From Syntrophomonas sp. DTU018 (GTDB taxonomy: Bacteria; Bacillota; Syntrophomonadia; Syntrophomonadales; Syntrophomonadaceae), in assembly GCA_001513155.1 (NCBI GenBank), contig LFSR01000035.1, positions 26,072 to 90,071 on the forward strand: DNA of 64,000 bases, in the 5' to 3' direction. Position 1 is the stretch's first letter. Each line of letters opens with the position of its first letter. A program made the position numbers and the translations under genes. Shown here in pieces: positions 21,929-56,521 of the stretch. The notes beneath the pieces are model-generated. The model ran no database searches. It was not told where the DNA came from and saw nothing but the letters and a program-made list of their open reading frames with translations.

Positions 21929-23758
21929 TTACCTGCCCAATGATTCTTCCATGACGGTTAGGGCAGTATCATCTCCGTACTGCAAAATGGATTCCAGGTG
22001 CATAATTGCCGGCACATGGTTGCGAATATAGAAACGAGCGGCATCTATTTTGCCCTGATAAAAAGCCAGATCCCAGTGCTCCCGGCCCAGTTCCTTAATC
22101 TTGTCCGCTGCTACGGCTGCCTGGTCCAGCAGCAATGTACCGCAGCACAGCTGGGCGGTGGCATGTAATATGCGGGTAGCATACAGGGGCAGCATCTCCC
22201 CCCGGCCCTGCTGTCTGAATTCATCCATCATAGCTTTGATGCGTTTATAGGAAGCCAGACCTTTCCCCATTATGGCACTTTCAGCGGTGAAATCATCTCT
22301 GCTGGCTATGGTATTTATGATACATTCCATATCCTGCAGCCAATCCGCGAAAACCTGGCCCTGCTTCAGATTCCATTTCCTGTTCACCAAGTCCATGGAT
22401 TGAATGTAATTGGTTCCTTCCCATATGGAGTAGATTTTACAATCCCGCGCCAGCTGAGCCAGAGGGTACTCTTCGGAAAAACCGTAACCGCCGTAAAGCT
22501 GGATGGCATCTCCCACCAAAGGCCATACCATATCGGAACAATAAGCTTTGACCAGCGGGGTCATGACCTCGATACGATCCCGGGCTTTCTGGCGCTCCTC
22601 CTTATCGGTACTGTGGCGGCTTACATCGAAATAATAGTAGGTCTTGAAAGCCATGGCCCGCATCCCTTCAGTACAGGCTTTCAGGTTGAGCAGAATCCGC
22701 CTGATATCCGCATGTTTTATGATAGGAACCCGGTTGCCTTGCGGATCGTTATAGGGTCTTCCCTGCACTCGTTCCCGGGCATATTCAGCGGCATGGAAAT
22801 AAGCCATGGAAGCCAAGGTATAGCCTGCCATGCCCGTGTCCATGCGGGCTCCGTTCATCATCTGAAACATCTGGGCTATCCCTTCGCCCTTTCCCTCAAC
22901 AGGGGGATTCCCCACCAGTATCCCCCGGCAGTTATCATTCTCACCGAAGTTGAGGGCAGCCGTTGCCGAGCCTTTAAGGCCCAGTTTGTGCTCAATTCCC
23001 ACAGTAGTCACGTCATTGTCTTCTCCCAGACTTCCGTCAGGATTCACCCAGATTTTAGGGACAATAAACAGCGATAGTCCTTTGGTGCCGGGCAATGAAC
23101 CTTCTATGCGGGCCAGAACCATATGAATTATATTGGAGCAGATATCATGGTCTCCCGCAGTTATAAATATTTTCGAGCCTTTGATTTTGTAAATCCCCGG
23201 TTCGCTGGTGGGATATGCTTTGGTCAGGATGTCTCCTACATCCGAGCCACTGCTGGCTTCGGTCAGGCACATGGTACCGCTCCACTCGCCCCTGCACAAT
23301 GGAGGCAGAAAGGTTTCTTTGTCCCACTCCCGTCCAAAAGTCTGGATCAGTTCCAGAACACCCCCGGACAGGTTCAGATAAGGGATAAAAGCGGGATTGC
23401 CTGCGGTAATCATTTCAATGATCGCAGAATACAGCACCTGGGGCAAAGTGCCTTCCCCGTCCTCCAGCAAATTTGCAATCCCCCAGCCTTCCTGATTCAA
23501 AAACCGGTAAAGGGAATGAAAAGAAGGCGGTACTGTTACTTTTCCCTTTTCAAAACGGGCCTGAATGGTATCTCCTTCTTTATTGGTAGGGGCCACCTTT
23601 TCCGTGACAATTTTCAAGGCTTGATCCAGTATGATATCAATATCGTCATGACTATAGTAATCTCGATATTTATCAAAACTAAATATTTTATCGGTATCCA
23701 ACCATTCCCCGATAATAAACTTTAAGTCCCTATTTGAATAAATAAAGTCGCCAGCCAT
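21929..23758 (-). CDS. Long-form acyl-CoA dehydrogenase (about 600 residues, DmdC-like)
   Basis: The 609-residue protein has the short N-terminal extension of the long family (FIYSNRDLKFIIGEWLDTDKIF), the FAD-dependent core (GEWSGTMCLTEASSGSDVGDILTKA) and the catalytic Glu in IWEGTNYIQSMDLV. An extra C-terminal helical domain follows. The enzyme oxidises acyl-CoA to enoyl-CoA and passes electrons to Etf. I start it at ATG 23758 behind GGGGGGAAA; this gives the same N terminus as the paralogue at 61843. It is the last gene of the ligase-crotonase-thiolase operon. Confidence 0.93.
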   Translation of the reverse strand: MAGDFIYSNRDLKFIIGEWLDTDKIFSFDKYRDYYSHDDIDIILDQALKIVTEKVAPTNKEGDTIQARFEKGKVTVPPSFHSLYRFLNQEGWGIANLLEDGEGTLPQVLYSAIIEMITAGNPAFIPYLNLSGGVLELIQTFGREWDKETFLPPLCRGEWSGTMCLTEASSGSDVGDILTKAYPTSEPGIYKIKGSKIFITAGDHDICSNIIHMVLARIEGSLPGTKGLSLFIVPKIWVNPDGSLGEDNDVTTVGIEHKLGLKGSATAALNFGENDNCRGILVGNPPVEGKGEGIAQMFQMMNGARMDTGMAGYTLASMAYFHAAEYARERVQGRPYNDPQGNRVPIIKHADIRRILLNLKACTEGMRAMAFKTYYYFDVSRHSTDKEERQKARDRIEVMTPLVKAYCSDMVWPLVGDAIQLYGGYGFSEEYPLAQLARDCKIYSIWEGTNYIQSMDLVNRKWNLKQGQVFADWLQDMECIINTIASRDDFTAESAIMGKGLASYKRIKAMMDEFRQQGRGEMLPLYATRILHATAQLCCGTLLLDQAAVAADKIKELGREHWDLAFYQGKIDAARFYIRNHVPAIMHLESILQYGDDTALTVMEESLGR

Positions 23759-23778
23759 GATTTCCCCCCCACTGGTTA

Positions 23779-24963
23779 CTAGTTGATGTTTTCTATGATG
23801 AAAGCGCAAGCAGGCCCGCCGCTGGCGCACATGGTAGAGCAGGCATACCGCTCGCCCCGCCTTTTTAGCTCATTGATAGCCGCCAGAATAATTCGGGCAC
23901 CGGTCATGCCCACCGGATGGCCTAAAGAAATCCCTGATCCGTTTGCATTGCAGCGCTCCACAGGAACGTTCAGTTCCTGCATGCAGGCTAAGGCCTGGGC
24001 AGCAAAGGCTTCATTGATCTCCCAGTAGTCAATGTCATTTAAAGTCATACCTGCGTATTTCAAAGCCCTAAGGGTAGCCGGTACCGGTCCCATCCCCATA
24101 ATCTTCGGTTCCACAGCAGCGGAAGCAGAAGCAACCACCCGGGCCAGTGGCTTTATTCCCAGCTTTTTGGCCTTCTCCTCTGCCATCAGGATCAAAGCTG
24201 CGGCACCATCGTTGATGCCGGAAGCATTGAAGGCTGTTACAGTCCCCTCTTTCTTAAATACCGGTTTTAACTTGGCTGCCATTTCCATGCTGGCGTTGGC
24301 ATTAGGGTGCTCGTCAGTATCGACCACCTGAATGCCCTTTTTGGTTTTAACTTCTACAGGAATGATTTCATCCTTAAACAGCCCGTCGGCTATGGCCTTG
24401 CAGGCCCGCTGGTGACTGAGCAAAGCATATTCATCCTGCTGTTCCCGGGTGATGTGATATAACTCAGCAATATTCTCGGCGGTAACCCCCATATGATAGC
24501 CTTCAAAGGCACAGATCAGTCCTCCCAGCATCAGGCTGTCCTGGACCACTTCACCATCATTGAGGCGGTAACCCTTGCGAGCTCCAAACAGCAAATAGGG
24601 TGCATTGTTCATGCTCTCGTACCCCACTGCAGCTGCTGTTTCGATCCTGCCCAGCATTATCTCCTGGGAGAGAATATCTGCCGCCCGCATGGAGGAAGGG
24701 CACTGCTGGTGAACGGTAGTGGAAACCGTTTCCACCGGCAGACCAGCATTTATGGTCACCCAGCGGGCTGAGTTGCCGGGGGAGCCATACTGGTTGCACT
24801 GGCCGCCGATCACCTCTTCTATCAGGTTGGGGGCTATGCCATATTTGTCGATAGTTCCTTTAAGAGCCAATGCACCCAGTTCATGGCCCTTGAGACCGGA
24901 CAGGGAACCCATAAAATCCCCGATCGCTGTCCGGGCTGCCGCTACAATAACTGCCTTTTGCAT
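23779..24963 (-). CDS. Acetyl-CoA acetyltransferase / 3-ketoacyl-CoA thiolase
   Basis: The 394 residues carry the thiolase motifs: the nucleophilic Cys in VHQQCPSSMRAAD, NEAFAAQALA, GHPVGMTGARI, and the second Cys in CSTMCASGGPACAFI. It cleaves 3-ketoacyl-CoA to acetyl-CoA in beta-oxidation. It lies between the crotonase and the long acyl-CoA dehydrogenase genes. Confidence 0.95.
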   Translation of the reverse strand: MQKAVIVAAARTAIGDFMGSLSGLKGHELGALALKGTIDKYGIAPNLIEEVIGGQCNQYGSPGNSARWVTINAGLPVETVSTTVHQQCPSSMRAADILSQEIMLGRIETAAAVGYESMNNAPYLLFGARKGYRLNDGEVVQDSLMLGGLICAFEGYHMGVTAENIAELYHITREQQDEYALLSHQRACKAIADGLFKDEIIPVEVKTKKGIQVVDTDEHPNANASMEMAAKLKPVFKKEGTVTAFNASGINDGAAALILMAEEKAKKLGIKPLARVVASASAAVEPKIMGMGPVPATLRALKYAGMTLNDIDYWEINEAFAAQALACMQELNVPVERCNANGSGISLGHPVGMTGARIILAAINELKRRGERYACSTMCASGGPACAFIIENIN

Positions 24964-24984
24964 ATTTCCTGCTCCTTTCCCTGT

Positions 24985-25749
24985 TTAAGTTCCTGTAAAT
25001 TCCGGTTTTCTCTTTTCTATAAAAGCTTTCATTCCCTCCCGCTGATCCCGGGTAGCAAAACAGCTGGCCCAGGCGACGGATTCAAACTCGATCGCCTTGA
25101 CCCCATCCATGTCAAAAGCCTGGTTGATGCACTGTTTGGCCAGTTTCAGAGCTACAGGCGGTTTGCTGGCCAGCATTTCAGCGGTTTGGATTGCTTCTGC
25201 CAGTGCATCATCTGCCAGTTGATTGATTAACCCGTACTCCAAAGCCTGTTGAGCATTTATAGGCTTCCCGCTGAAGATCATCTCTTTTGCCCGGGCTGCT
25301 CCTATCAGCCGCGGTAAACGCAGGGTTCCTCCTGCTCCCGGGAAAATACCCAGGTTAATCTCCGGCAGGCCTAACCGGGCGGTGTTGTCGGCAATCCGCC
25401 AGTCACACACCAGAGCCAATTCCAGCCCTCCTCCCAGAGCAAAACCGGAGATGGCCGCCAGCACTGGTTTGGGAAAGGCTTCGATCCGGGCAAAACAATG
25501 CCGGAAGGAAAAAGCCCGGGCTTGTTCCGGATTGAAATCCAGCATGTCATTGATGTCCGCACCTGCTGCAAAGTGTTTTTCCCCGGTAATTATGACCGCC
25601 TTGACTTTTTCGTCTGTTTCCAGTTCCATAAAGACCTGTTCCAATTCTTCAATCATCTGGTGATTCAAGGCATTCAAGGCTTGCGGCCTTTGCAGCGTGA
25701 CAATCCCGATCATTTCATGTCTGGTAAGAGAAATACAGTCATAGGCCAA
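24985..25749 (-). CDS. Enoyl-CoA hydratase (crotonase)
   Basis: The 254-residue crotonase has the oxyanion loop AAGADINDM, the first catalytic Glu in GFALGGGLELALVCDWRIA and the second in LPEINLGIFPGAGGTLRLPRLIG. It hydrates crotonyl-CoA-type substrates. I place the start at TTG 25749 (MAYDCISLTRHE...), because the frame to 25788 overlaps the ligase gene and lacks a good site; GGGGGTG lies upstream of 25749. It is the second gene of the operon. Confidence 0.92.
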   Translation of the reverse strand: MAYDCISLTRHEMIGIVTLQRPQALNALNHQMIEELEQVFMELETDEKVKAVIITGEKHFAAGADINDMLDFNPEQARAFSFRHCFARIEAFPKPVLAAISGFALGGGLELALVCDWRIADNTARLGLPEINLGIFPGAGGTLRLPRLIGAARAKEMIFSGKPINAQQALEYGLINQLADDALAEAIQTAEMLASKPPVALKLAKQCINQAFDMDGVKAIEFESVAWASCFATRDQREGMKAFIEKRKPEFTGT

Positions 25750-25784
25750 TATCTCAACACCCCCTGCCGCATCTATTGCCGGGC

Positions 25785-27470
25785 TCAAACCTGCTGCCCG
25801 GCAACCATGGCTTTCAAACTCTTGCGGTCAGGTTTGCCCACAGGTGTACGGGGCAGATCACTTAAGAATTCAACCTCTTTAGGCACTTTGTAAGGGGCCA
25901 GTTTTTCCCGGCAGCGTGCTATCACTTCTTCTTCACTGAGCTTGGCTCCCGGTTTCAGAACTATAAATGTCTTGGCCACTTCACCGCGCTTGGCATGAGG
26001 TATGCCAACGGTGCAGGCATCCTGAACCTCAGGCATGGCGTAGCATACTTCATCAATCTCCCGGGGGTATACATTGAAACCGCTGCTGACTATGATGTCT
26101 TTCTTCCGGTCCACGATATAAAAGAATCCATCTTCGTCCATATAGCCGATGTCACCGGTATAAAACCATCCATCCCTCATTGCCTTGGCAGTTTCTTCCG
26201 GGTTATTCCAGTATTCGCGCATCAGCTGAGGCCCGCGGAAGATAATTTCTCCGGGCTGACCGGGAGGCATAATCTCCACCCCGTTAACACTGTCAACCAC
26301 CAGCACATCTGTATCCACCCAAGGTACTCCCACACTGCCGATCTTGCGAGTGTGATGGGCTGAATTTGAAGTTATCTGCTGGCAGCTTTCCGACATACCA
26401 TAACCTTCTACAATGCGGCATTTGCATTTTTCCTCAAACTGGCGAATAATTTCTTCCGGCAAAGCTGACCCGCCGCAGAATATACCGCCCCGGAAGCAGG
26501 AAAAATCCGTTTGCTGAAAACGGGGGTGGTTCATCAGCAGGATGAGCAAGGTGGGAACAGCCGGGAGAGTAGCCGGTTTGTACCTTTCAATAGCATCAAA
26601 TATGGCATCCGGGTCAGGCACCGGAACAGTAACCAAACTGCCGCCGCATACGAAATTGAATCCTACAGCAGCCATAAAACCAAAGATATGGCTTATAGGA
26701 ATAATGGACAATGCTCTTATATCCCCGGCTTTCATGGTAGTGTAATTGTTGGTTACCCACTGGCCTATGCGAACCGCTTTGGACATGACGTTGTGATTGG
26801 TTAGGACGCAGCCTTTGGGAACACCGGTTGTTCCGCCAGTGTATTGCAGGCGGACAATGTCATCGGGAGTCAGTTCCGTATCTGGCTCAGTGTTGTCAGC
26901 TGCTGCAATGATTTCATTAAAATCATAAATCGTATCACCTTTTTCCACTTCAACCGGCATAGTGGGTACCTGAAATACAATGATCCGTTTCACCGGGGAG
27001 TCCGGCTCTTTCATAACTTCGATGGCTTTTTCTGCGAACATAGCCATGACTATAATCGTTTCAGCACCGCTGTCCTTGACCTGGATTGATATTTCCCGGA
27101 CAGTGTAAAGGGGATTGGTGGGTACCTCAATGGCCCCGATTTTAAGGAGTGCTTGGATAGACAGTACATATTGGGGCAGGTTGGGGGATATTATGGCCAC
27201 CCGGTCACCCTTTTTTACTCCCAGACTGGTGAGAGCATTAGCCAGACGGCGGGCTATATCGTTGGCCAAACCATAGGTGATCACCGTTTCCCCCTGCATG
27301 ACATAAGGCTTACCCGGATACTCTTCCGCCCACTTGTTAAACCACCATTTCGGGGGTTCCGTGGGGTACCGGGGGGACAGTTCGATCTTGTCGTCATAGT
27401 TTGCCTGCCACAGAGGCCGCAGCCTGGCAACTTCTTCCTCAAAAGCTTTTAACCATGGTTTTTCAGACAT
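25785..27470 (-). CDS. AMP-forming acyl-CoA synthetase (fatty-acid CoA ligase)
   Basis: The 561-residue adenylate-forming enzyme has the P-loop-like LQYTGGTTGVPKGCVLTNHN, the GYGMSESCQQ motif, the GDIGYMDEDGFFYIVDRKKDII hinge and the C-terminal lysine in RTPVGKPDRKSL. It activates fatty acids with ATP and CoA. ATG 27470 has GGAGG 7 bases upstream. It is the first gene after the sigma-54 promoter at 27536-27550, so it should open the operon acs-crotonase-thiolase-dehydrogenase. Confidence 0.94.
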   Translation of the reverse strand: MSEKPWLKAFEEEVARLRPLWQANYDDKIELSPRYPTEPPKWWFNKWAEEYPGKPYVMQGETVITYGLANDIARRLANALTSLGVKKGDRVAIISPNLPQYVLSIQALLKIGAIEVPTNPLYTVREISIQVKDSGAETIIVMAMFAEKAIEVMKEPDSPVKRIIVFQVPTMPVEVEKGDTIYDFNEIIAAADNTEPDTELTPDDIVRLQYTGGTTGVPKGCVLTNHNVMSKAVRIGQWVTNNYTTMKAGDIRALSIIPISHIFGFMAAVGFNFVCGGSLVTVPVPDPDAIFDAIERYKPATLPAVPTLLILLMNHPRFQQTDFSCFRGGIFCGGSALPEEIIRQFEEKCKCRIVEGYGMSESCQQITSNSAHHTRKIGSVGVPWVDTDVLVVDSVNGVEIMPPGQPGEIIFRGPQLMREYWNNPEETAKAMRDGWFYTGDIGYMDEDGFFYIVDRKKDIIVSSGFNVYPREIDEVCYAMPEVQDACTVGIPHAKRGEVAKTFIVLKPGAKLSEEEVIARCREKLAPYKVPKEVEFLSDLPRTPVGKPDRKSLKAMVAGQQV

Positions 27471-27535
27471 AGACACCCTCCTCACCAAATAATCCCTTGT
27501 TAGCTCAAACAGTTCCTCCTGCTGGTTTTCTGAAC

Positions 27536-27550
27536 GCAACATTCATGCCA
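27536..27550 (-). promoter_or_regulatory. Sigma-54 promoter of the beta-oxidation operon
   Basis: On the minus strand TGGCATGAATGTTGC matches the sigma-54 pattern TGGCAYG-N4-TTGC, with the -24 GG at 27548-27549 and the -12 GC at 27536-27537. The ligase start codon is 66 bases downstream. Confidence 0.85.
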
Positions 27551-27630
27551 GGCTGCTCCAGGCCCGCAGATCAGGGCTGCGGCGGCTCCCGCCAGGATAA
27601 ACCCTTCTTCATGGCCCAGAATCTTATGGG

Positions 27631-27654
27631 TTTTGATACATAATTGTATCAAAA
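27631..27654. promoter_or_regulatory. Activator binding palindrome 1
   Basis: TTTTGATACA and TGTATCAAAA are perfect inverted repeats around TAAT. The centre is about 115 bases upstream of the predicted sigma-54 start, a usual place for enhancer sites. Confidence 0.75.
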
Positions 27655-27717
27655 CCAGGTTAGACAGGTGCCGCAAGCAGAAAAATCCTTTAGTCGTATT
27701 CAGATTATTTAGAAAAT

Positions 27718-27735
27718 TGATACACCTGTGTATCA
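27718..27735. promoter_or_regulatory. Activator binding palindrome 2
   Basis: TGATACA-CCTG-TGTATCA has the same 7-base half-sites and the same 4-base spacing as palindrome 1. It is also 115 bases before the activator's own start codon, so it may take part in self-control. Confidence 0.75.
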
Positions 27736-27849
27736 TTGAATAAAACCATATTTTCTTTGGATGTGGCTCCTTTTATCCATTTTTTGATTCACTTTAGTAT
27801 CATTACAATATAGCCAAGGTTGAACTGTATTTCTTTGGGGGTTTTAACC

Positions 27850-30060
27850 GTGAATTTGGAAAGAGAAAAGTGGCTGGCGGTGGCTGAATATCTGTCACAC
27901 CTGGGCAGGGATCTGAAAATTAAGTCCTCCTTGAAAGTAAAAGATTTCATGCGCCAGGACCCGGAACTGCTGACGGCAGAAGACAGCATAAAGTCGGCGG
28001 TAGAAATCATGGTCAGCAATAATATTGACGCAGTCCCTATTGTGGATGAAGCAGGCAATCTTCAGGGTTTGGTTACAAAAACCCTGGTTCTGCGGGAAGT
28101 ATTAAACGGCACTGATCTGGAGCAGCCCATCGGTAAAATTATGATCAGCCAGATACAATCCATTGGTCCGGAAGAAGATGTGGCAAAGCTGATTACTATC
28201 AATGTGGGCAATCTGCCTGTTTTAAGCAATCAAAAGGTCGACGGGATGGTAACCCTGTCAGATACCATCAGAGCTTATTTCAGTTCATTAATTGCCCTGC
28301 ACGCAGAACTAACCGCGGTAATCAATTCCACCCATAACGGCATCCTGACGGTAAATGAAGCCGGGGAAATAAGCCTGGTCAACAAAGCTGCTGAACTGCT
28401 CCTGGGCATTAAACAGGAAGAGGTGGCAGGCAAAAAGATCAGTCAGGTTTTACCTCAAAGCAAGCTGCCGGAGATATTGGCCAGCGGGAAAGAGCGCCTG
28501 GGACAAAAGGTGGTTTACAACGAGAAAGTATTTATCTCCAACCTGACCCCGGTAATGGGCGATAAACAGATTATCGGAGCAGTGGAAGTTTTTCAGGATA
28601 TTTCCGAACTGGAAATGATATCCGAAGAGCTCAACTATACCAAGCAAATGAAGGAAGAGCTTTTGGCTATCATCGATTCCTCCTTCGACGGTTTTCACAT
28701 AACTGACAGTGAGGGCAAAACCCTGCGCATCAACAAAGCCTTTGAGCGGATCACAGCCATACCTTTCAAGGATTTAATAGGCAAAACCATAGCGGAATTA
28801 ACAGAGGAGGGGGTATACTCTCAGGATCTCCTAAAACTGGTGCAAAAGAAACGTGAACCGGTAACCATCTCCCAGGAATCAAAACCGGGAAATACGGTTA
28901 TGGTCACAGCCAACCCGGTGGTTGATGAACAGGGCAATTTGTTCAGAGTGGTTATCAATGTGCGGGATATATCGGAGCTTAATGAGTTAAGACAACAGCT
29001 GGAACAAGCCCGGACCCTAAGCCATCACTACCAGGGAGAGCTGAAGCGCTATAACCTGGCGGATCAATTTGTCGTTCGCTCCAAAGAAACCAGAGATCTG
29101 GTGGATCTCTGCGTGCGGCTGGGACAGGTTGATGCCACGGTGCTGATCAAAGGTGAATCCGGGGTGGGCAAAGAATTCGCTGCCCAGATAATCCACTCCA
29201 ACAGCAAGCGCTGGGACAAACCTATGATAAAAGTAAACTGTGCCGCTATTCCGGAAAACCTGTTTGAATCAGAACTTTTCGGCTATGAACCGGGGGCTTT
29301 CACCGGTGCCAGCAAAGAAGGCAAACCGGGATTGTTTGAGGTAGCCCACGGCGGTACCCTGTTTCTGGATGAAATTGGGGAAATGCCTTTAAATACTCAA
29401 GCCAAACTGCTCCGGGCCATACAGGATAAAGAGATTACCCGGGTAGGGGGTACCAAACCCATCAAGGTAGATGTCCGCATTATTGCGGCTACCAACCGCA
29501 ACCTGCAGGAAATGGTGCAGAACAAGGAGTTTCGCCGGGATCTTTTCTTCCGGCTGAATGTCATTCCGGTAACCGTCCCTCCTTTAAGGGAACGCAAGTC
29601 GGAAATCCCCTTTCTGGTAGATCATTTTGTTAAAAAGTTCAACGCCAAGTATAATTTTAAGAAACGCATTGATGAACGCCAGATAAAAGCTTTGATGAAC
29701 TATGACTGGCCAGGTAATGTTCGGGAACTGGAAAACTTGATTGAGAGAGTACTGGTCACCTCTCCCGGAAATATAATCCGCCATATCGATCTTATCGATC
29801 ATTATGAGGCTGAGCAAAGGGATTATAAAGCGATTAATTATGAAAAGTATATCGGCTGCAAGCTGCAGGATGCAGTAGAACAACTGGAAAAATTCCTGAT
29901 TCAGAATTCCTTGGAAACCCTGGGTACCACCCGCAGAGCAGCCCAGGAATTGGGGGTAAGTCAACCTACCATAGTACGCAAAGCTGCCAAATACAATATC
30001 CCGCTGAAGAACAAAAAAGAAGGGAATCATCTTGGGGGCGGTACAACTGGAGGATTTTAA
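27850..30060 (+). CDS. Sigma-54-dependent activator with CBS and PAS sensor domains
   Basis: The 736-residue protein has two CBS domains (about residues 30-150), two PAS domains (about 155-265 and 275-390) and a sigma-54 AAA+ domain. That domain has Walker A GESGVGKE near 435, the GAFTGA loop near 482 and [10 protein letters not shown] for Walker B. A Fis-type helix-turn-helix ([20 protein letters not shown]) lies near 690. I choose GTG 27850, 8 bases after TGGGGG. The CBS pair suggests sensing of adenine nucleotides or a CoA-type ligand; this is an inference. It is divergent from the ligase operon and is the best candidate to activate it. A SEC-C gene follows after 25 bases. Confidence 0.92.
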
Positions 30061-32110: not shown

Positions 32111-34435
32111 TTACTCATTGATAAGGGTTTCCTTCAGCACCTCATCCATATGTGCAACCGGGATAAACCTCATTTTACGCCGCACATTGGCCGGTATATC
32201 CACCAGATCCTTTTCGTTTTCCACCGGCAGGATTACGGTGTCGATACCAGCCCGGTGAGCGGCCAGAACCTTTTCTTTCAAACCGCCAATGGGCAATACG
32301 CGACCCCGCAGGGTTATCTCGCCGGTCATGGCTACGTCTTTCCGGACCAGTTTGCCCGACATAGCCGAAGCCAGGGCGGTAGCTATCGTTATCCCGGCGG
32401 ATGGGCCATCCTTGGGGATTGCCCCTTCCGGCACGTGCAAGTGGATATCATAATTCTCCCGGATATCATCAGGAATACCCAGTTCATCAGCCCGGGAACG
32501 CACATAGGTCAGGGCAGCCTGGGCTGATTCTTTCATAACGTCGCCCAGCTTACCGGTTAAAGTTAAATTACCTTTGCCTTTCAACAGGGCTACCTCTATG
32601 GAGAGTATATCTCCTCCCGCTTCAGTCCAGGCCAAGCCGGTAGCCACACCCACCTGGTGTTCTTTTTCCGCCACCCCAAAACGATACCGGGGTTTGCCCA
32701 AAAACTTGCTCAGGTTACCCGCAGTAACACTCACCATAGTATGGGGATCTTCCACTACCTGGCGGGCAACCTTGCGGCACACGGAGGCAATCTCTCTTTC
32801 CAGATTTCTTACCCCCGCTTCCCGGGTATACTCCCGGATAATCTTGCGAATAGCCCCCTCGGAAAAGGTTATATGATGTTCCTTTAACCCGTGCTCTTTG
32901 ATCTGCTTGGGTATAAGGTGATCCATGGCTATGTGTACCTTGTCTTCCTCAGTGTAGCCACTGATTTCAATAACTTCCATACGATCCAGAAGCGGTTTGG
33001 GAATGGTATGGGTAGAATTGGCCGTGGTTATAAACATTACCTTGGAAAGATCGAAAGCCGTTTCCAGGTAATGATCGCTGAAATTGGAATTTTGCTCGGG
33101 ATCCAGAACTTCCAACAACGCGGCGGCAGGATCCCCCCGGAAATCCATGGTCATTTTATCTATTTCGTCCAATAAAAATACGGGATTTCGCGAACCGGCC
33201 TGCTTCATACCCTGCAGCACCCGGCCCGGCATGGAACCTACATAAGTGCGCCGGTGACCTCTTATTTCCGCCTCATCGCGAATTCCTCCCAGAGACATGC
33301 GCACAAATTTCCGGTTCAGTGAGCGGGCCACTGACTTGCCCAGGGAAGTCTTGCCCACTCCGGGAGGTCCAACCAGGCACAAAATGGGCCCTTTCATCTT
33401 TTTGGCCAGTTTGCGGATAGCCAGGTACTCCAGAATGCGTTCCTTGGGTTTTTCCAGTCCATAATGATCCTCATCCAGAATCTGCTGGGCCTTCTTTAAA
33501 TCCAGACGGTCTTTGGTTTCTACCGACCAGGGCAAAGACAAAAGCCAATCCAGGTAGTTGCGGACTACTACCGCTTCTGCCACCATGGGCGGCATTTTTT
33601 CCAAACGTTCTAATTCCTTATAGGCTTTCTCATAGGCTTCTTTGGGCAATTTGGCGTTATTAATACGTTCTCTTAATTCCTCAACTTCAGCTGCCCGTTC
33701 GTCTTTGTCGCCTAATTCCTTCTGAATGGCTTTCATCTGCTCACGCAGGTAATATTCCTTCTGGGTTTTCTCCATCTGCTTGCGGACCCGGATGTTGATC
33801 TTGCGTTCCAATTCAAGAACTTCCATTTCCTTGGCCAGCATCTCACATAATATCTCCAGACGCTGGGGTATGCTCCGGGCTTCCAAAATTCTCTGCTTAT
33901 CCGGGATGCGCAGGGATAGATGGGAAGCGATAACATCCGCCAGACGGCCAGGTTCCTCAATGGCTACTACTGCGACTACCGTTTCCGGAGGTATCTTCTT
34001 GCTCAAGCGGACGTACTGTTCGAACTCGGAAATAAGAGCTCGCATGAGAGCATCCAATTCCGGAGTTTTCTCCACATCGTCTTCTTTAAATTCCTCAACC
34101 TGGACCCGTATATAGGGATCGGTAAATACAACCCCTTTTACCTCGGCCCGGTGCAAACCTTCTACCAGCACCCGCATAGTGCCTCCGGGCATCTTTAAAA
34201 CCTGGCGGATTTCCGCTATGGTACCAGCGGCATATATGTCATCAATTTCCGGTTCATCAGTCTGAGCTTCTTTCTGAGTAGCCAGAAATATTTCCTTGTT
34301 ATTCATCATCGCCTCTTCGATGGCATTAACGGATTTTTTCCTGCCTACATCCAAATGAATAACCATATATGGGAAAACAAGCACCCCACGAAGAGGCAGC
34401 ATGGGAATCTCGCGGTAGGTGGTCTGATTTTCCAT
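32111..34435 (-). CDS. lon: Lon ATP-dependent protease (LonA)
   Basis: The 774-residue protease has the N-terminal substrate domain ([25 protein letters not shown]), the AAA+ domain with Walker [16 protein letters not shown] near residue 355 and the C-terminal Ser-Lys protease domain ([23 protein letters not shown], then [15 protein letters not shown]). It degrades misfolded and regulatory proteins. GGAGG precedes ATG 34435. It sits 31 bases after lonB, and the order lonB-lonA-engB is conserved in Bacillus. Confidence 0.97.
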
Positions 34436-34466
34436 TTTTCAAACACCTCCAAGCACATTCATTCTA

Positions 34467-36185
34467 CTATATGTCGTTATCGGGCGCAATAAGGCCTCCC
34501 ATGTGCTTTGGTCCGTGCCAACGGCATTTGGCCTGCAGGGCAGTTTTCTTTTTTACCTCACCTACCAAAGCCCGGCTTAACACTTCATCCAGATTTCTTA
34601 CAGGAATTATTTCCATATCATCAATGCTCTCCAGGGTGGCCATCCAATTATCAGCGGGAATAATAACCCGCTTGATGCCAGCTCTCCGGGCAGCATCAAT
34701 TTTGCTCAATATCCCTCCCACCGGGCGAACCAATCCCTGTACTGACAGTTCCCCGGTCATGGCCAATAGATTATCCACCGGCTGATCGGTAATAGACGAA
34801 TAGACGGCAGTTGCCATACTGATCCCTGCCGATGGTCCATCTACCGGGATCCCGCCGGGAAAGTTCAAATGAATGTCATAGTTGCGGGTATTTATTCCAT
34901 AACGGGAGCGCAGTACTGTCAGTACGTTTTCTACTGCCCCTTTGGCCATGCTCTTACGGGTATAGCTATGACCAGCTCCACCTACCTGTTCCTCCTCGAT
35001 GACTCCAGTCACGGTCCAGGTTCCCTTCCCCGCGGCTGCGGGAATACTGGTTGCTTCCACTTCAATAATAGTCCCAGCCGTTGCTCCGTAAACCGCTAAC
35101 CCATTTACCACTCCCACTGTAGGCCGTTCCTTGGGTTTTATATCCGGACGGGGAGAAAAACGCCCGTTGTTTAGGACTTTTTCCACTATAGGTTTGGTAA
35201 TCCGTAATTTCAGTTCCATTTGGGCTATCCCGGCAGCAAGCTGCACCATATTCACCGCCTCCCGGCCGTTGGAAGCAAATCTGGTTATCTCCGTCAGGGC
35301 ATCATCGTCTATTTCGAAATTCAGCCTCTCCAAAGCATTAAGCACTATGCGCTGGATATGTTCTTTCTCCAATGGCTTGAAGAATATCTCCAGGCAGCGG
35401 GACCTCAGCGCCGGAGGCAGTTCCTCCGGGTTACGGGTAGTGGCCCCCACCAGGCGAAAATCGGCGGGGAGTCCGTTGCGGAAAATATCATGAATATGTG
35501 CCGGTATATTGGGATCATTTTCGTTGTAATAAGCACTTTCCAGAAGCACTTTGCGGTCTTCCAAAACCTTTAACAATTTATTCATCTGCATGGGATGCAG
35601 TTCGCCAATCTCATCAATAAACAAAATACCGCCATGAGCTTTGGTACACGCTCCCGGTTTGGGCTGGGGAATGCCTGCTGAGCCCATAGCTCCAGCACCC
35701 TGGTAAATAGGATCGTGCACTGATCCGATCAGAGGATCGGCGATATTGCGCTCATCAAAGCGCATAATGGTAGCATCAACTTCTACGAATTTGGAATCAG
35801 CGTTGAAGGGTGACCAGGGATTGGCCTTGGCTTCTTCCAGCACCAGACGAGCGGCAGCCGTTTTCCCTACTCCCGGAGGTCCATAAATGATGACATGCTG
35901 GGGATTGGCACCGCAGAGGGCCGAGCGCAGCATGTCTATTCCTTCCTCCTGGCCGATCACATCCGCCAGACTTTTAGGCCGGGTCAGGCTGGATAAAGGC
36001 TCACTGAGTTTTATGCTGCGCATCTGTTTAAGCTTAATAGTTTCCTTTTCCGACTCCCTGAACATTACAGTCTTTCTGCTCTGTTGGCCTTTGAGCAAAT
36101 TCCAGAAGTATAACCCGATGATTACCGCAAAGATGAACTGGACAATATACAGGATGCCGCCATATTGCAGGAAGAAATCATTCAT
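34467..36185 (-). CDS. lonB: LonB, membrane-anchored Lon-type protease
   Basis: The 572-residue protein starts with a membrane segment (residues 10-28) and lacks the long LonA N-terminal domain. It has a Walker [19 protein letters not shown] and ILFIDEIGELHPMQMNKLLKVLED, and the Lon protease end with the catalytic serine in GGIPVDGPSAGISMATAVYS and lysine in GGILSKIDAARRAGI. In Bacillus LonB is forespore-specific and under sigma-F. That fits a spore-former, but I could not recognise a sigma-F promoter upstream. Confidence 0.93.
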   Translation of the reverse strand: MNDFFLQYGGILYIVQFIFAVIIGLYFWNLLKGQQSRKTVMFRESEKETIKLKQMRSIKLSEPLSSLTRPKSLADVIGQEEGIDMLRSALCGANPQHVIIYGPPGVGKTAAARLVLEEAKANPWSPFNADSKFVEVDATIMRFDERNIADPLIGSVHDPIYQGAGAMGSAGIPQPKPGACTKAHGGILFIDEIGELHPMQMNKLLKVLEDRKVLLESAYYNENDPNIPAHIHDIFRNGLPADFRLVGATTRNPEELPPALRSRCLEIFFKPLEKEHIQRIVLNALERLNFEIDDDALTEITRFASNGREAVNMVQLAAGIAQMELKLRITKPIVEKVLNNGRFSPRPDIKPKERPTVGVVNGLAVYGATAGTIIEVEATSIPAAAGKGTWTVTGVIEEEQVGGAGHSYTRKSMAKGAVENVLTVLRSRYGINTRNYDIHLNFPGGIPVDGPSAGISMATAVYSSITDQPVDNLLAMTGELSVQGLVRPVGGILSKIDAARRAGIKRVIIPADNWMATLESIDDMEIIPVRNLDEVLSRALVGEVKKKTALQAKCRWHGPKHMGGLIAPDNDI

Positions 36186-54928: not shown

Positions 54929-56332
54929 TCACTTTTTACCTTCATAATGAGTCAGGTTGTGCTTTTTCAGCAGGCGAAACAGGGTAGCCCGGGATATTCC
55001 CAGTCTCTTGGCAGCTTCCTCCCGGTCTTTTTCTACCAAATCAAGAGTCTGTACAAGTACCTGTCTTTCAAATCGTTCCATGGCTTCCCGGTAGTTTGCC
55101 GGCGGACAGGCATTTTTGCGAATATGCAGGGGAAGATCTTCCGGAGCTATCTCCGGGTTCTGGCAGAAGTTCATGGCCATCTCCAGTACATTGCTGAGCT
55201 CGCGCACATTGCCCGGCCAATCATACTCCAGCAGTAACCTCTTGGCTTCCTCGGATATGCCATAGACATTCAGTCCCAGTTGGGTATTCAGCTTTTGTAT
55301 AAAATACTCGGCCAGAGGAATGATATCTTGTTTGCGCTCCCTCAGGGGCGGTATATACAGTTTGACTACGTTTAACCGGTAATACAGGTCATGGCGGAAC
55401 TTGCCGTCTGCCACCAGTTGTTCCAGGTCGGCGTTGGTAGCCGATATGATGCGCACATCTACCCTGCGCGGTTTGTTATCCCCCACTCTTTCGATTTCTT
55501 TTTCCTGTAACACCCGCAAAAGCTTGGCTTGCATAGACCAGGGCATTTCCCCTATCTCGTCCAGAAAAATAGTACCTCTATTGGCTAGTTCAAACTTGCC
55601 CATTTTCCCGCCTTTGCGTGCTCCAGTAAAAGCCCCGTCAACATAGCCAAACAGCTCGCTTTCCAGCAGATTCTCAGGGATGGCCGCACAGTTCACCTTA
55701 ACAAAAGGCTCATGGGAACGATCACTGTGGAAATGAATGGCATTGGCATAGAGCTCTTTGCCTACCCCGCTTTCCCCGGTAATCAGAACAGAAGAAGTAG
55801 AATTTGCCAGTCGCATGACCATTTCTTTTAAATGTTTCTGACTGCTGCCGATAATAGCTTCGATGCCTGATACAGCAGTATTGCTGCGCTGAAAGTCTTC
55901 CCGGTAGGCATTCAGTTCGGTAAACAAGCGGCTGGTTTGAATCATAATGTCTCTTATTCTGATGCGGGAGACTATTTTAAGAAAATCTTCCCTATCCCAT
56001 AATTTTTGTTTCAGGGCATAGGTATCCAGAGCCACGTAGCGCCCCAAAGCCCCTATCAGCCGGTCGTTATGAAAAACCGGCTGACGGGACACCAGCAGCC
56101 TGGCTTCCGGGTAATAGGATAAAAGGTCAGGATCACCGGTTTGGATGGTCTCCAGCAGGCCGGTATCGAGATTGTGCTGGGATAGATGGGTATTCAACAA
56201 ATCCTCATCAGTCAGACCTGTATAGGTCTTAAAGGCGGTATTGGCAAAGCGAATATAACCCTCACTATCGATGAATATAATTCCCTCATACGGCGTGTTC
56301 ATCATCAGGATAGGATCTTCACAAGTATTCAT
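54929..56332 (-). CDS. Sigma-54-dependent activator with a PAS sensor
   Basis: The 467-residue protein has one PAS domain (about 12-100; MMNTPYEGIIFIDSEGYIRFANTAFKTYTGL), a sigma-54 AAA+ domain with Walker A GESGVGKE near 190, GAFTGA near 235, LDEIGEMPW and [15 protein letters not shown], and a Fis-type helix-turn-helix at the end (REEAAKRLGISRATLFRLLKK). ATG 56332 lies 8 bases after GGGGGG. It is divergent from a thiolase operon with its own sigma-54 promoter and is its likely activator. It lacks the CBS pair of the activator at 27850. Confidence 0.93.
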   Translation of the reverse strand: MNTCEDPILMMNTPYEGIIFIDSEGYIRFANTAFKTYTGLTDEDLLNTHLSQHNLDTGLLETIQTGDPDLLSYYPEARLLVSRQPVFHNDRLIGALGRYVALDTYALKQKLWDREDFLKIVSRIRIRDIMIQTSRLFTELNAYREDFQRSNTAVSGIEAIIGSSQKHLKEMVMRLANSTSSVLITGESGVGKELYANAIHFHSDRSHEPFVKVNCAAIPENLLESELFGYVDGAFTGARKGGKMGKFELANRGTIFLDEIGEMPWSMQAKLLRVLQEKEIERVGDNKPRRVDVRIISATNADLEQLVADGKFRHDLYYRLNVVKLYIPPLRERKQDIIPLAEYFIQKLNTQLGLNVYGISEEAKRLLLEYDWPGNVRELSNVLEMAMNFCQNPEIAPEDLPLHIRKNACPPANYREAMERFERQVLVQTLDLVEKDREEAAKRLGISRATLFRLLKKHNLTHYEGKK

Positions 56333-56357
56333 GAAGATCACCCCCCTTTAACCGGCA

Positions 56358-56380
56358 GTCTCAAATCTGATACTTGAGAC
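56358..56380. promoter_or_regulatory. Candidate activator site upstream of the second sigma-54 promoter
   Basis: GTCTCAA and TTGAGAC are perfect inverted repeats 9 bases apart. Further half-sites TTTTTGAGA (from 56385) and AGTCTCA (from 56449) lie toward the promoter. The centre is about 160 bases upstream of the predicted start. Confidence 0.6.
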
Positions 56381-56505
56381 ATCATTTTTGAGATTAGGGA
56401 CCCACGGCTAATTTCAATAATGAATTGGTATCTCTTGTCAGCTATCCAGTCTCATAAATGATATTAAAACAGCTTCACACCCTATTACTACTTATTATGA
56501 ACTCC

Positions 56506-56521
56506 TGGTATGTATCTTGCA
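56506..56521 (+). promoter_or_regulatory. Sigma-54 promoter of the thiolase operon
   Basis: TGGTATGTATCTTGCA fits TGGYAYG-N4-TTGCA, with -24 GG at 56507-56508 and -12 GC at 56519-56520. The open frame of the thiolase runs through it, so the protein must start further downstream. Confidence 0.8.

Follow-up and report, generated by a model that had tools for sequence, protein, structure and literature searches.

In clostridia, a butyrate operon is under sigma-54 control by CrbR, with multiple UAS sites and with CBS domains in activators (PMC6615313). Most activators in that study control a single neighbouring operon, and the UAS lie mostly 100-250 bp upstream; Syntrophomonas is absent from its main text. 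Beta-oxidation genes are enriched among sigma-54 targets in Clostridia and Bacilli (PMC12316311). PAS/sigma-54 regulators of S. wolfei have been detected by proteomics, among them Swol_0456, which was found only in butyrate-grown coculture (PMC4324140).

We analysed a gene cluster that belongs to an uncultured relative of Syntrophomonas, within a stretch of 64,000 nucleotides referred to as the window. The CrbR system is alike in that a C4 acyl-CoA operon has a sigma-54 promoter, several UAS and an activator. However, the CrbR operon makes butyrate whereas the window operon starts with a fatty-acid ligase, and the CrbR motif pairs TGT and ACA as inverted repeats 10-12 bp apart whereas the window motif is TGATAC-N6-GTATCA. 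Compared by site sequence, the window sites do not fit TGT-N10-12-ACA (PMC6615313), the pattern expected of a CrbR orthologue. PrdR, the proline reductase activator, is the best NCBIfam match and covers the second PAS, AAA+ and HTH regions, but the score is below the cut-off (NF041552, 510 bits versus 795), the targets differ, and this identity was rejected. TyrR-type regulators share the HTH_50 domain, and the window palindrome has a 6-6-6 layout like that of the TyrR box (TGTAAA-N6-TTTACA). The half-site is nevertheless a different one, the window activator has a CBS-CBS-PAS-PAS front end, and TyrR itself was rejected at 282 bits for the equivalog NF008085 (cut-off 576). AcuB is similar in the fold of its CBS pair (the top matches include AcuB structures with AMP, ADP, ATP and Ap4A) but is not a sigma-54 activator, and CcpN is likewise a CBS-pair regulator but a repressor of different architecture. 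The S. wolfei regulators come from the same bacterial family and are likened here by their general domain make-up; the study that detected them proposed neither a promoter nor an enhancer site nor a target (PMC4324140).

The acyl-CoA operon and the divergent activator gene

The locus comprises the following features (window coordinates).

21929..23758, minus strand: FadE-like acyl-CoA dehydrogenase of about 610 aa, last gene of the operon (profile match)
23779..24963, minus strand: acetyl-CoA C-acyltransferase (thiolase) (profile match)
24985..25758, minus strand: enoyl-CoA hydratase, start approximate (profile match)
25785..27470, minus strand: long-chain fatty-acid--CoA ligase family, first gene of the operon (profile match, homology)
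27535..27550, minus strand: sigma-54 promoter (-24/-12), TGGCATG-AATG-TTGCG (sequence; kept in orthologous loci L011-L014)
27634..27651, no strand: UAS1, TGATACA-TAAT-TGTATCA, perfect, candidate enhancer site (sequence and orthologues)
27718..27735, no strand: UAS2, TGATACA-CCTG-TGTATCA, perfect, candidate enhancer site (sequence and orthologues)
27785..27802, no strand: UAS3, TGATTCA-CTTT-AGTATCA, two mismatches, candidate enhancer site (sequence and orthologues)
27850..30060, plus strand: activator gene, GTG start, CBS-CBS-PAS-PAS-Sigma54_activat-AAA_lid-HTH_50 (domains; start set by orthologue homology)

The gene order ligase-crotonase-thiolase-dehydrogenase, as read in a first-pass annotation of the sequence, is right. 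The operon gaps are inferred to be 20-26 bp, and the gene that follows the acyl-CoA dehydrogenase is convergent. We placed the ligase start at 27470, which has a ribosome-binding site, because the homology starts exactly there; the mechanical ORF start at 27542 was discarded. The earlier description as a whole beta-oxidation operon is too strong, because the operon is without genes for 3-hydroxyacyl-CoA dehydrogenase, one of the four cycle enzymes (none within 21929-27470), and for ETF. Eight matches to PF00725 (3-hydroxyacyl-CoA dehydrogenase) lie elsewhere in the genome.

The sigma-54 promoter and the candidate enhancer sites

The near-consensus sigma-54 promoter predicted ahead of the ligase operon is present at 27550-27535 on the minus strand, with a 10-nt GG..GC spacing, and transcription would be expected to start near 27525. 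When two mismatches were allowed in the 12-base core, the 64-kb window gave 19 matches versus 21 expected. This score is no better than chance, and we therefore relied on exact counts across the genome and on conservation. The exact core, TGGCAYG-N4-TTGC, is rare, with 9 copies in the 2.56-Mb genome versus at most 1 for the reversed control. The first-pass annotation had named the absence of a sigma-54 gene as grounds for abandoning its proposal; we looked for the gene, and rpoN is present (PF04552 at G000:C8:55750, E 9e-66).

The intergenic region 27471-27849 lies between two divergent transcription units. Two palindromes with the same half-site had been placed about 115 and 200 bases upstream, and both are exact, with the centres of UAS1 and UAS2 ~117 and ~201 bp from the expected start site. 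A genome scan for TGATACA-N4-TGTATCA, proposed at the same time, returned these two as the sole copies with 0-1 mismatch in 2.56 Mb. The sites are not twins, as there are three: the one at 27785-27802, UAS3, had been overlooked. UAS3 lies 48 bp ahead of the activator start, has one mismatch in the orthologues, where it is the most conserved of the three sites, and is possibly autoregulatory for the activator gene. A sigma-70 promoter of the activator at UAS3 gave no match at threshold, so we only infer autoregulation. Copies with two mismatches elsewhere in the genome number six versus about four control matches, so we do not claim a wider regulon, with the exception of one lead, abfD, which is considered below.

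Four orthologous loci (L011-L014, 80-86% protein identity) all contain the three sites and the promoter. The distance from the start of UAS1 to the 5' end of the promoter is 84 bp in the window and 84-87 bp in the orthologues, whereas the UAS2 and UAS3 distances differ between species. Synteny of the operon behind the promoter is seen in L011, L012 and L014; L013 stops short of the operon. At a 65%-identical locus (L028) the divergent gene is a thiolase, and several sites of the type TGATRC-N6-GYATCA are accompanied by a promoter match that is weak, at 9/12. Altogether, the window-type pattern (pattern A) accounts for 16 sites in 6 loci versus 0.01 expected from dinucleotide shuffles.

The activator protein

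The divergent gene product was classed as a bacterial enhancer-binding protein by its Sigma54_activat domain (PF00158, 238 bits), by its intact Walker A, Walker B, GAFTGA loop and arginine finger, and by the presence of rpoN in the genome. It had been described as a CBS-CBS-PAS-PAS-AAA+-Fis protein. We retain the architecture up to the AAA+ domain, with the second CBS domain scoring weakly in Pfam, but the helix-turn-helix is HTH_50 (42.6 bits, cut-off 27) and not Fis (HTH_8, PF02954, 17.7 bits, under the cut-off of 22). The genome carries 20 full sigma-54 activators. A second sigma-54 activator of the window (54954-56521, minus strand) is encoded near CoA-transferase and acyl-CoA dehydrogenase genes, and a promoter match, TGGTATG-TATC-TTGCA, lies on the plus strand just upstream of it. 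Elsewhere in the window, two Lon-type proteases, which we named LonA and LonB by eye, are encoded in tandem at 32111-36185 beside clpX- and clpP-like genes.

Activator subfamilies and their candidate sites

A family-level search found relatives in 54 out of 54 genomes, and the majority of genomes have full-length relatives of the CBS-PAS type; on sequence comparison, activators of CBS-CBS-PAS-PAS-AAA+-HTH architecture form a family that has expanded in Syntrophomonadaceae. Acyl-CoA genes lie near all 19 family loci fetched versus 2 out of 17 arbitrary regions, which were picked by hand and several of which are short. Among the other activators of the window's genome, 13 out of 17 also have acyl-CoA neighbours, so this association is not special to the CBS type. 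A sigma-54 promoter (≥ 10 of 12 consensus bases, within 600 bp) follows 28 out of 29 downstream-reading activators, versus 0.36 in shuffled sequence and 0 on the reverse strand. At the fetched activator loci of the window's genome, a promoter of this class (≥ 10 of 12) lies within 700 bp of 16 out of 31 leading acyl-CoA genes (15 out of 28 once three that overlap the window are removed) versus 5 out of 116 control ORFs; these loci were selected for their activators, so the figure is not a whole-genome rate.

We distinguished subfamilies by sequence and neighbourhood. Subfamily A is the window type. Subfamily B precedes the core butyrate operon, with thiolase, hydroxybutyryl-CoA dehydrogenase, crotonase, butyryl-CoA dehydrogenase and CoA-transferase genes, and a sigma-54 promoter is found at 14 out of 14 of these THL-HBD-ECH-BCD operons. 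Subfamily C precedes a 4-hydroxybutyryl-CoA dehydratase-like gene, and subfamily D (L165) adjoins a CoA-transferase. In the tree, A and C are neighbours with modest support. At one B-type locus of the window's genome (L164:7763-16884, G000:C53), a sigma-54 promoter comes after the activator gene and leads into an operon with the complete thiolase-HBD-crotonase-BCD-CoA-transferase set; directly upstream lie genes that were named by eye, from translations, as type III CRISPR (RAMP-like).

The subfamilies share one 18-bp geometry (7-4-7), and the half-sites differ, with TGATAC in A and TGTTGC in B. The B palindrome, TGTTGCA-N4-TGCAACA, occurs at 13 out of 14 B loci; the A pattern was found in no B locus and the B pattern in no A locus. 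The patterns were derived from the same loci, so we scored a held-out set, in which 10 B sites fall in 7 out of 15 loci versus 0.1 expected from mononucleotide shuffles. The recognition helix has SQPT in subfamilies A and C; in B it is (N/D)AST in most cases. Half-site and recognition helix thus appear to change in parallel, a correlation that comprises few independent changes. No recognisable B site was found at the B-type loci L177, L138 and L146. Downstream of the activator, L138 has two TGTTCC-N6-GGAACR palindromes where its relatives have TGTTGC, and its helix is AAST. We found no shared palindrome at six loci of other subfamilies (L015-L018, L139 and L145).

The CBS pair and its signal

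The second CBS domain contains the motif GMVTLSD, which corresponds to the G-h-h-T-x-x-D ribose motif and whose T and D do not vary across alignment A2. The motif is retained in A and in most B members and lost in three C members (L168, L173 and L182); the first CBS domain is without the motif aspartate throughout A, B and C. As modelled with AlphaFold2 (pLDDT 84.5), the pair most resembles AcuB with AMP or ADP, and MJ0100 (SAM/MTA) is also close. An adenine nucleotide is the likeliest ligand class. An adenylate signal through the pair is plausible given the conserved CBS2 motif and the AcuB-like fold, whereas nothing specific speaks for acyl-CoA, which had also been suggested. The idea that CBS domains are a new input for sigma-54 activators is not supported, because they were already listed in 2019 for Clostridiales activators (PMC6615313) and the architecture recurs throughout the family.

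The proposed circuit and alternative explanations

We consider it highly probable, from the parts, their spacing, their conservation and the family-wide association, that the activator, the three palindromes, the promoter and the divergent acyl-CoA operon form a local sigma-54 switch. In this switch, the activator would be a one-component enhancer-binding protein whose HTH_50 domain binds the three 18-bp palindromes (core TGATAC-N6-GTATCA). Activator at the ~117 and ~201 bp sites would loop onto sigma-54 RNA polymerase at 27550-27535. Release by the sensor domains would let ATP be spent through the GAFTGA loop and the promoter open, and the sign of control would be positive: the ligase, hydratase, thiolase and acyl-CoA dehydrogenase genes would be switched on. 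An adenine nucleotide is the most likely ligand of the CBS pair, a second signal may enter through the PAS pair, and the third site, beside the activator start, probably serves autoregulation. The promoter, palindromes and divergent activator of the complete circuit proposed at first pass are borne out by phylogenetic footprinting and genome-wide rarity; the whole operon, the twin sites, the Fis domain and the CBS novelty are not.

The same palindromes might instead be operators of an unrelated repressor (a TetR- or GntR-like FadR analogue), with another activator driving the promoter. Fatty-acid operons are classically under repressors, long perfect palindromes are typical of operators, and the genome has 20 full activators to choose from. 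However, no repressor gene adjoins the sites, which accompany the activator gene in related loci and keep the UAS1-promoter distance at 84-87 bp, and sister activators have the same 7-4-7 geometry in other letters with a parallel shift of the recognition helix. We regard a repressor as very unlikely. Slightly less credible still is a fortuitous promoter match, with a housekeeping sigma factor transcribing the operon. The chance frequency of two-mismatch matches in the window and the weak sigma-70-like hexamers in the intergenic region would fit such a reading, but no good sigma-70 promoter precedes the ligase on its strand, the exact consensus is scarce in the genome (9 versus 0-1 in the control), and the orthologues keep the motif while much of the intergenic sequence around it is not kept.

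A third alternative touches the reach of the switch. The activator may also control abfD (contig C6) in trans and would then serve a small regulon and not a local switch.

L166:5080-5261 (G000:C6:100079-100260): abfD-like gene (HpaB/4-hydroxybutyryl-CoA dehydratase family) with its promoter and site

This gene has a 12/12 sigma-54 promoter with TGATCCA-TAAA-TGAATCA 167 bp upstream, and there is no activator gene within the fetched 11 kb around it. A similar site lies at equal distance in G004, and related sites occur where a subfamily C activator adjoins abfD. Against this, the site has two mismatches, a class whose other genome copies are near the control level, and abfD could be served by another of the 20 activators. 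Control in trans is thus a possibility that we hold to be somewhat unlikely, and we prefer the local switch.

Discussion

Syntrophic fatty-acid oxidisers live close to the thermodynamic limit. They have many paralogues per beta-oxidation step, and the abundance of these shifts with growth condition (PMC4324140). We found no account of how syntrophs choose among them in the papers searched. Nor did the literature searched describe these activators as a family, their sites or their connection with syntroph operons, which is weak evidence because subscription journals fell mostly outside it. Each Syntrophomonadaceae subfamily would pair a half-site of its own with a particular acyl-CoA operon. 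We give an even chance to the broader view that sigma-54 serves mainly acyl-CoA catabolism in Syntrophomonadaceae, and that the CBS-CBS-PAS-PAS set, expanded in this lineage, reads adenylate status and a second cue while half-sites in an 18-bp frame (TGATAC, TGTTGC, TGTTCC and others) act as a code that selects the paralogous beta-oxidation operon. If this is true, the operons chosen by the half-site code would include the core butyrate-oxidation operon of syntrophy. A family of sigma-54 activators, each with a readable enhancer site and an energy-type sensor, would yield predictions that can be tested operon by operon, and would be a natural choice for working out a protein-DNA recognition code. 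Close relatives of the switch beside acyl-CoA genes across the family may offer a testable answer to how methane-feeding bacteria choose among fatty-acid pathways.
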